Shown here piece by piece: positions 35,274 through 36,078 of a stretch of DNA of 64,000 bases (position 1 is its first letter; each line of letters opens with the position of its first letter). Source of the stretch: Adineta ricciae (lineage: Eukaryota > Rotifera > Eurotatoria > Adinetida > Adinetidae). The stretch covers positions 310,001 through 374,000 of the forward strand of contig CAJNOJ010000082.1 in the NCBI GenBank assembly GCA_905250025.1, given 5' to 3'. A model generated the notes under the pieces. The model was not told the DNA's origin, searched no databases, and saw only the letters and a list, made by a program, of their open reading frames with translations. A program made the translations under genes and the position numbers.

Positions 35274-36078
35274 TCAGCCAACAATAGGTGTGTGTGTAAC
35301 AATTCCTTTATTATTAACGATCACTCGAACACGACTTGTACTGTAGTCCAGTGTAACTGGTGAACCTTCGAGTATAGTCACAACATTAGTAAGACCTAAG
35401 AAATTGATTAATAATGAATTTATTCACACATCGATGCAATCTTTACCTGTTTCCTTTTTAATTACTTTCACGGCATGTTCACCCTTCTGACCAACCAATT
35501 CCGGCCACTGAGTTTTGTTCGCTGTTGGTTTATTCTCTAAAATATGTATTCCATTTTTCCTATCGATTCAGCGTTCTGTTTACTTTACTTTTCACACGAA
35601 TAACTGGTACACTGATGAATTTAGTCCGTTGAGCGCCCAAAGGTATTATTGGTATATGCACATCATTGATATATAACAGTTCGTTTTGTTTATTTCGAAT
35701 CGCTACATTGATAGAATATGTATAACCTTTGGTAATTTGAGATGGAAGATATTTAATTGCAAATGCAATTGGAAATCGAGAAGCTTTTTCTGTTCCTTTG
35801 GCAATAACTTTAGCGGGAGCATCAAGTAAAGACACATCTTGTAATTCTACCGTTACTTTAGCACCGCGTTCAATTTGTACTCTCGAATTCTCAGGAAATA
35901 ACACCCGACCACGAATAACAAGTTTTTCTTCCGCTTTAGATGTTGGTGCTGCATCTAAACGAAATCAACACACATGCAATTGAATCGCACAGAAGACAAA
36001 CAAAATGTTTGACATACCGGTCAATGCCAGTACACAAACAATACAAATAAAGAAACCGATTCGACGTAGTGATTTCAT
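35274..36078 (-). CDS. Secreted YbaY-domain / potato-inhibitor-I (eglin-type) fusion protein
   Basis: Four exons (36018-36078, 35589-35954, 35447-35536, 35274-35395) join in phase to 212 residues. Residues 1-20 form a signal peptide. Residues about 30-135 match the bacterial YbaY/YscW-type lipoprotein domain: VIRGRVLFPENSRV, VTVELQDVSLLDAPAKVIA, a YTYSINVAI strand and a VHIPII strand. Residues about 150-212 are a potato inhibitor I domain: TQWPELVGQ at the start, the reactive loop EGSPVTLDYS (P1-P1' expected at Leu188-Asp189, as in eglin c), then RVRVIVN and the terminal Val-Gly. That family blocks subtilisin/chymotrypsin-like serine proteases. A secreted protease inhibitor is likely. The YbaY part is known mainly from bacteria, yet the gene has three ordinary introns, so it is resident in this genome. 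Confidence 0.85.

Follow-up and report, generated by a model that had tools for sequence, protein, structure and literature searches.

Potato inhibitor I domains (PF00280; MEROPS family I13) are of a type found in plants and leeches and carry a reactive loop with a Thr at P2, an Asp at P1' and two later Arg residues that brace the loop. Eglin c and chymotrypsin inhibitor 2, the closest described relatives of the inhibitor considered here, have no cysteines, and the loop of eglin c carries the same motif. Variation at P1 is common in inhibitor families that are selected for their target range. The second domain of interest, YbaY/YscW (PF09619), is otherwise described mainly in bacteria, where many of its members have a lipoprotein signal with a lipobox cysteine. 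The Pfam entry characterises YscW as a lipoprotein that acts as a chaperone in type III secretion; the function of such a pilotin is to bind and place a secretin. To our knowledge, the YbaY domain is widespread but uncharacterised, and it is our impression of the field that horizontally gained animal genes are usually studied as whole genes.

Here, we describe a gene of the bdelloid rotifer Adineta ricciae that joins these two domains, and the family of genes to which it belongs. The window, that is, the whole stretch of DNA that was analysed, comprises 64,000 nt of contig CAJNOJ010000082.1 (C82 in the following), and positions given without a contig are those of the window. The genome searched amounts to 130 Mb in 1033 contigs, which are cited by short handles.

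Structure of the fusion gene

The fusion gene occupies positions 36078–35274 on the minus strand, and its four exons (61, 366, 90 and 122 bp) encode 212 aa. The three introns (63, 52 and 51 bp) are all GT-AG and all in phase 1. The initial annotation had proposed four exons with three normal introns at these coordinates, and a spliced alignment reproduced the identical exons. The features are as follows.

36018..36078, minus strand: exon 1, holding the start codon and the region of the signal peptide (residues 1-20 and one further base), with the phase-1 donor G/GTATGT at its end (spliced model)
35955..36017, minus strand: intron 1, 63 bp, phase 1; also 63 bp in the C120 copy (model and copy comparison)
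35589..35954, minus strand: exon 2, the YbaY exon, phase 1 on both sides (spliced model)
35623..35886, minus strand: YbaY/YscW domain, residues 44-131 (PF09619, 3.4e-15)
35537..35588, minus strand: intron 2, 52 bp, phase 1, separating the two domains; 50 bp in the C120 copy (model and copy comparison)
35447..35536, minus strand: exon 3, the linker followed by the N-terminal portion of the potato inhibitor I domain, from residue 150 at about 35516 (model and Pfam)
35396..35446, minus strand: intron 3, 51 bp, phase 1, within the inhibitor domain; 54 bp in the C120 copy (model and copy comparison)
35274..35395, minus strand: exon 4, remainder of the potato inhibitor I domain and stop codon (PF00280, 1.7e-19, residues 150-212)
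35346..35351, minus strand: codons of the predicted scissile pair Leu188-Asp189 in GSPVTLDY (read from the sequence)

Intron 2 behaves as an intron, since its length differs by 2 bp between the C82 and C120 copies, a change that would break the frame if the segment were translated. The C120 copy has the same four exons. The four neighbouring frames of the window that were scanned correspond to ordinary animal genes (arfaptin, anoctamin, an ankyrin-repeat protein and an SNF2/HSA helicase), and contamination was rejected as very unlikely; the view of the locus as a true host gene with introns is borne out. Furthermore, the profile scores reported below, together with the second copy on C120, exclude chance as an explanation of the fusion.

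At the N terminus of the encoded protein, the hydrophobic segment expected from the earlier claim of a signal peptide is present, with a mean hydropathy of 3.14 over residues 7-18, and no 19-residue stretch beyond residue 22 has a mean above 1.09. No cysteine occurs in residues 22-212. The protein fits a soluble secreted protein, because its mature part lacks both cysteines and a second strong hydrophobic stretch; judging from its signal-like N terminus, it is probably secreted.

The two domains and their described relatives

Both domain identities had been read from the letters alone, and a profile check placed both far over the curated Pfam cut-offs. PF09619 scored 56.7 bits against a cut-off of 22.6 (profile positions 14-102 of 107), while PF00280 scored 70.6 bits against 24.5 over residues 150-212, covering the full profile (1-64 of 64; 1.7e-19). 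The related inhibitor family I78 remained just under its Pfam cut-off (22.5 versus 23.6 bits), and NCBIfam gave zero matches to the protein. The linker between the two domains is short and basic.

The YbaY half matches PDB entry 5wec_A, named 'Lipoprotein', over residues 34-139 (3.4e-9), and the same entry was matched by a profile built from 34 YbaY sequences (2.3e-41); the domain is most likely a compact beta-domain. The conserved segments LQDxSLxDA, FP and LLYIND are common to the rotifer protein and the bacterial YbaY/YscW lipoproteins (PF09619, 5wec_A). Different from the latter, the rotifer protein has a eukaryote-type signal-like start and an inhibitor partner, and inspection of residues 1-25 found no lipobox of the form [LVI][ASTVI][GAS]C. 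Since the lipobox is lacking and residues 22-212 hold no cysteine, we class the protein as a carrier of a YbaY domain and not as a YbaY lipoprotein.

The inhibitor half aligns nearly end to end with plant inhibitors, chymotrypsin inhibitor 2 and eglin c in the PDB. The eglin-like loop GSPVTLDY begins at residue 183, in agreement with the earlier assignment of P1-P1' to Leu188-Asp189, and the reactive-loop residues (GSPVTLDYSTSRVRV) Thr187, Leu188, Asp189, Arg194 and Arg196 match the pattern of P2 Thr, P1' Asp and two Arg. Thus, the protein shares with eglin c and chymotrypsin inhibitor 2 the whole domain, the Thr before P1, the Asp after P1, the RVRV strand and a cysteine-free mature part, whereas the N-terminal YbaY domain and the intron within the inhibitor domain are found in the rotifer protein only, and its activity is a prediction. 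Since the whole domain, Thr187, Leu188, Asp189 and the RVRV strand are present, substrate-like inhibition is expected.

The phase-1 intron inside the inhibitor domain recurs in 21 of 24 fitted stretches, on visual inspection at the same position or close to it (the C82 copy, which has the same intron, being counted separately). The exceptions are one of the fused copies on C81 (C81a), which has none, one C5 copy with an unsure phase-0 intron, and one partial copy beside unread bases. On the basis of this common intron, fused and unfused inhibitor genes are most simply derived from one intron-bearing family. The likely P1 residues of the six fused copies described below are Leu, Leu, Met, Lys, Met and Met; those of the unfused copies are mostly Met, with Arg and Leu also occurring and with C83 and C69 ambiguous. 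Some of the unfused potato inhibitor I genes stand in a tandem array at about 115-117 kb of C235 (L036:1850-4050), where one of them is broken by unread bases.

A family of YbaY-inhibitor genes in the genome

Profile matches in the genome were counted per exon, so that one gene may give two PF00280 matches, and the counts are lower bounds: at least 29 for PF00280, at least 21 for PF09619 and at least 37 for PF00014 (Kunitz). YbaY is joined to protease-inhibitor domains in 10 of its 21 matches, six times to potato inhibitor I, three times to Kunitz and once to an antistasin-like segment plus Kunitz. In particular, six loci, located on C82, C120, C81 (two), C27 and C1, have an inhibitor I domain downstream of YbaY in the same orientation, and four of the six proteins were checked with Pfam. 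YbaY followed by Kunitz occurs on C81 (1.6e-18), C82 (7.5e-18) and C120 (6.4e-17, a genome match), and the locus on C10 combines YbaY, an antistasin-like segment that scores under its cut-off (18.5 versus 21.2 bits) and a Kunitz domain (9.9e-20). The initial annotation had named no other animal protein with this pairing; as a unique oddity the fusion is not supported, given that the same genome holds six YbaY-inhibitor I loci and four YbaY genes with Kunitz; we therefore rejected the reading of the C82 fusion as a lone oddity.

The YbaY-Kunitz and YbaY-antistasin-like-Kunitz genes (L021 to L024) share the order of the C82 gene, with a signal-peptide exon leading to a phase-1 YbaY exon and then to the inhibitor. 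They differ from it in the inhibitor fold, which is Kunitz, and, in L022 to L024, in a Tyr/Asn-rich stretch before YbaY. The latter three, located at 27 kb of C120 (L022), 255 kb of C82 (L023) and 184 kb of C81 (L024), appear as secreted YbaY-Kunitz fusions with the Tyr/Asn-rich stretch set between signal peptide and YbaY. On C81, at 256-262 kb (L018), two YbaY-inhibitor I genes lie on opposite strands about 4 kb apart, and one of the inhibitor domains is intronless.

The other 11 YbaY matches have no adjoining potato inhibitor I or Kunitz match, the two families to which the partner test refers, and YbaY is thus not tied to inhibition. These loci are on C143, C140, C305 (two), C4 (two), C110, C84, C80, C21 and C133. 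Five of them (C143, C140, both on C305 and one on C4) are small frames that start near the domain and have no evident signal peptide, and the one on C133 has a signal-like start and no same-frame partner. The C21 locus is a 925-aa frame with two YscW stretches according to Pfam; a loose scan with our own profile gave nine, five of them with i-E <0.005. At about 216-219.5 kb of C21 (L034:501-3959), this frame is adjoined by a signal-like start with a charged low-complexity region, and it may represent a large extracellular YbaY-repeat protein.

Exon symmetry and a tandem gene pair

All ten models of inhibitor-linked YbaY genes have the same exon order, namely, signal-peptide exon, YbaY exon and inhibitor exon(s). 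Across these models, 20 introns flank the YbaY exon; 19 of them are in phase 1, and the exon has three kinds of partner. The sole exception is the second intron of the C1 gene, fitted in phase 0, whose near copy on C27 is in phase 1. For several copies, the signal-peptide exon was selected visually among open frames before the spliced fit, and the first introns of the C27 and C1 genes measure only 39 bp, so that the starts of several copies are less sure. With same-phase boundaries in several gene contexts, the YbaY exon has the properties of a class 1-1 shuffled module.

A tandem pair of genes allows the exon to be considered in its presence and in its absence.

C10, about 884937-887131 (L021:938-3132): tandem antistasin-like/Kunitz genes A and B

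Gene B encodes a signal peptide, YbaY, the antistasin-like segment and Kunitz, with intron phases 1, 1, 0 and 1. Gene A, just upstream, encodes a signal peptide, the antistasin-like segment and Kunitz, with phases 1, 0 and 1, and lacks the YbaY exon. The two are identical at 61% of their common part (80/132). The difference between them resembles the insertion or loss of one symmetric exon, of which the pair is possibly a record. A third antistasin-like/Kunitz locus, on C29, has 41% identity over the antistasin-like stretch; as it has no YbaY genome match, a gain of the exon in gene B is tentatively favoured. The best reading of these data is that the YbaY-inhibitor family spread by exon shuffling.

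Copies, selection and age

The C120 copy of the fusion encodes a protein 95% identical to that of C82. Between the two genes, 15 synonymous and 10 nonsynonymous changes give a dN of 0.021, a dS of 0.103 and an omega of 0.204, which shows that the pair is under purifying selection. When the parts are taken separately, with few changes in each, omega is 0.138 for YbaY, 0.205 for the inhibitor and 0.96 for the signal peptide, while dN is lower in the inhibitor (0.0127) than in YbaY (0.0185). Similar values of omega were obtained for the Kunitz pair L023/L022 (0.196) and for C27/C1 (0.244). The comparison of C82 with C81a, at a dN of 0.40 and a dS of 2.4, is near saturation.

On both C82 and C120, the fusion has an arfaptin exon at a distance of about 5.6 kb (100% identical), and on C81 the arfaptin exon (88%) is about 26 kb away from the fusion. 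Anoctamin is present on C82 and C120 (97%), and its other matches in the genome are all distant. These patterns are most simply read with C82 and C120 as homologous copies and C81 as a product of the older duplication. Each of the three contigs carries a YbaY-Kunitz gene as well as YbaY-inhibitor I, and on this reading both kinds of fusion would predate the older duplication. According to PMC5916493, the duplication is probably earlier than the divergence of the bdelloid families; the same paper reports ancestral tetraploidy in all four of the bdelloids considered, medians of 55-67 bp in what appears to be the intron-length row, and a G+C content of 35.6% in A. ricciae, compared with 30.8% in A. 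vaga and 31.9-32.6% in the two Rotaria species. The mean G+C content of the window is 35.6%, in keeping with a bdelloid and closest to A. ricciae. A scan for the telomere repeat TGTGGG gave 28 places versus 30 in the reversed control, which is itself a cyclic form of the same repeat.

Bacterial distribution and origin of the YbaY domain

A scan of bacterial and archaeal contigs gave 473 pattern matches, of which 431 encoded a relative. The best 80 of the 431 came from Chloroflexota, Caulobacter, Vibrio, Pseudomonas and others, at 27-43% identity. In viral contigs, none of the 172 pattern matches was confirmed. YbaY was present in 86 of the 398 Pseudomonadota genomes and 18 of the 151 Chloroflexota genomes sampled. 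PF00280 was found in three of the same 398 Pseudomonadota genomes, weakly (27.5-29.3 bits) and in none of the 86 with YbaY, and in 0 of the 151 sampled Chloroflexota genomes, where the scan was positive nowhere, so that this count is not proof of absence. In a search of 12 bacterial genomes with a profile of the fusion, no match extended past model position 141 of 194 and none spanned both domains. The pairing of YbaY with inhibitor I was not found in the 398 Pseudomonadota and 151 Chloroflexota genomes sampled. The candidate explanation that the fusion itself was inherited from bacteria was set aside as unsupported, since PF00280 and YbaY never occurred in the same sampled genome and no match of the fusion profile spanned both.

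Among 130 bacterial YbaY loci, of which at least one place was counted twice, 99 have no long extra sequence and 31 do. The 31 long ORFs, near copies included, pair YbaY with META (16), DUF4923 (4), DUF5640 (4), DUF4377 (2) and NlpE_C (2), and, once each, with MliC, fasciclin, SH3_3, Lipocalin_4 and NlpE; the 11 partner families detected by Pfam in these ORFs include no inhibitor I and no Kunitz. The YbaY-MliC ORF, from Zobellella endophytica (L093:1770-2924), is the sole pairing with an enzyme inhibitor in the bacterial sample. Like the C82 protein, it carries YbaY with an enzyme-inhibitor domain after it in a single chain, whereas its partner, MliC, is a lysozyme inhibitor unrelated to the protease inhibitors, and the ORF is bacterial. 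In one Chloroflexota genome (G553; L151), a single 575-aa frame holds five YbaY matches.

A tree of YbaY was built from 78 rows and 111 columns, with 60 of the 130 bacterial loci (near copies and X rows dropped) and 18 of the 21 rotifer matches; C21 was left out, as were C84 and C80, which nearly duplicate C110, and all eukaryotic rows were from the rotifer. The YbaY domains linked to inhibitor I (six) and to antistasin-like plus Kunitz form one supported group (96/84), in which the joining of C27/C1 with C10 is possibly a long-branch artefact, and the three Kunitz-linked domains form a separate group (100/99). In this tree, which is too short to settle origins, no nesting of the rotifer sequences in a bacterial group is recovered, and a single clade of all 18 is not rejected (p-AU 0.307), as is also the case for the ten inhibitor-linked domains (p-AU 0.476) and for the six linked to inhibitor I (0.374). 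For the inhibitor I domain, a tree of 20 rows (6 fused, 14 single; near copies and partial ones left out) and 62 columns is compatible with a single fusion (p-AU 0.449). Because the alignments of both domains are too short, one fusion and several are not told apart.

A bacterial, horizontal origin of YbaY in the rotifer is plausible in view of the general distribution of the domain and of the 431 stretches with a relative in bacterial and archaeal contigs. It is possible to hypothesize, tentatively and at odds somewhat below even, that a bacterial YbaY entered the genome, gained phase-1 introns on both sides and was shuffled onto secreted protease inhibitors of at least three kinds, mostly before the bdelloid genome doubling, and that the domain may serve as a handle that targets enzyme inhibitors in general; in bacteria, such a pairing occurs once, in the form of YbaY-MliC. 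If the bacterial source is confirmed, a foreign domain would have become an exon that was shuffled and paired with several inhibitor folds, and the C10 pair, with the exon present in one gene and absent from the other, would be a record of the exon step.

Both domains were already known, and it is their combination that appears to be new, since we found no prior account of it. In the part of the open-access literature matches that was covered, we found nothing on the pairing of YbaY with inhibitor I, on YbaY-Kunitz, on YbaY in animals, on potato inhibitor I in bdelloids or on a function of YbaY. The words 'inhibitor', 'protease', 'lipoprotein' and 'ybay' are all absent from the available part of PMC3499245. 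The YbaY-inhibitor family offers a testable clue to the function of the YbaY domain.

Proposed function and alternatives

We propose, with a probability of roughly 0.6, that the C82 protein is a soluble secreted inhibitor head with a YbaY handle, belonging to a family spread by exon shuffling and directed at extracellular proteases. The C-terminal potato inhibitor I domain is predicted to be a standard-mechanism, substrate-like inhibitor, whose loop, with Leu188 at P1 and Asp189 at P1', would fit into the active site of a serine protease of the chymotrypsin or subtilisin type. YbaY, at the N terminus, would act as a handle that binds or places the inhibitor and would not itself be inhibitory, a role that we infer from its company of unrelated secreted inhibitor folds, its conserved sequence and its absence from the unfused inhibitors. 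By exon shuffling, one symmetric phase 1-1 YbaY exon would have been set between a signal-peptide exon and varied inhibitor modules, namely, potato inhibitor I, Kunitz, and antistasin-like plus Kunitz. The proteases targeted would probably be extracellular ones, either microbial or the rotifer's own. The fusion may have a role in defence, and a defence against fungi or bacteria would fit the bdelloid pathogen response (PMC11258130), even though the word 'inhibitor' occurs 0 times in the main text of that report.

It could also be that the protein regulates digestive or developmental proteases of the rotifer itself, with YbaY binding the gut lining, the cuticle or the eggshell. Kunitz and antistasin-type domains often regulate the animal's own proteases, and other YbaY proteins of this genome, such as the 925-aa frame, look extracellular. 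Nearly all of this evidence is, however, common to the inhibitor-and-handle reading, from which the target alone differs, and we consider this alternative less likely than not, though appreciable.

Two further alternatives assign a different task to YbaY. In the first, the protein would be two-headed, with YbaY blocking a second enzyme, either another protease or a bacterial hydrolase, so that each fusion has two targets. The joining of the rotifer YbaY to two unrelated inhibitor folds and the MliC partner in one of the 31 long bacterial ORFs point in this direction, but bacterial YbaY mostly comes without long extra sequence (99/130) or with META (16/31 long ORFs), the literature matches covered (a part of the total) hold no inhibitory activity of YbaY, and the five small rotifer frames, seemingly without a signal peptide, have neither potato inhibitor I nor Kunitz as a partner; a second inhibitory head is thus improbable. 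In the other, YbaY would be a folding aid or pro-region that helps the inhibitor to fold or to stay inactive and may be cleaved off, as could be suggested by the chaperone role that Pfam gives for YscW and by the short, basic linker. At least 14 inhibitor I copies have no adjoining YbaY match, so that the inhibitor seems able to fold alone, and by omega the conservation of YbaY equals or exceeds that of the inhibitor (0.138 versus 0.205), though by dN it is slightly weaker, with few changes in either case; we regard such an auxiliary role as quite improbable.

That two neighbouring genes were mis-joined, or that the locus is a pseudogene, is hardly credible in view of the identical exon order at six loci, the intact frames, the conserved splice sites, the frame-breaking difference in intron length between the copies and an omega of 0.20.
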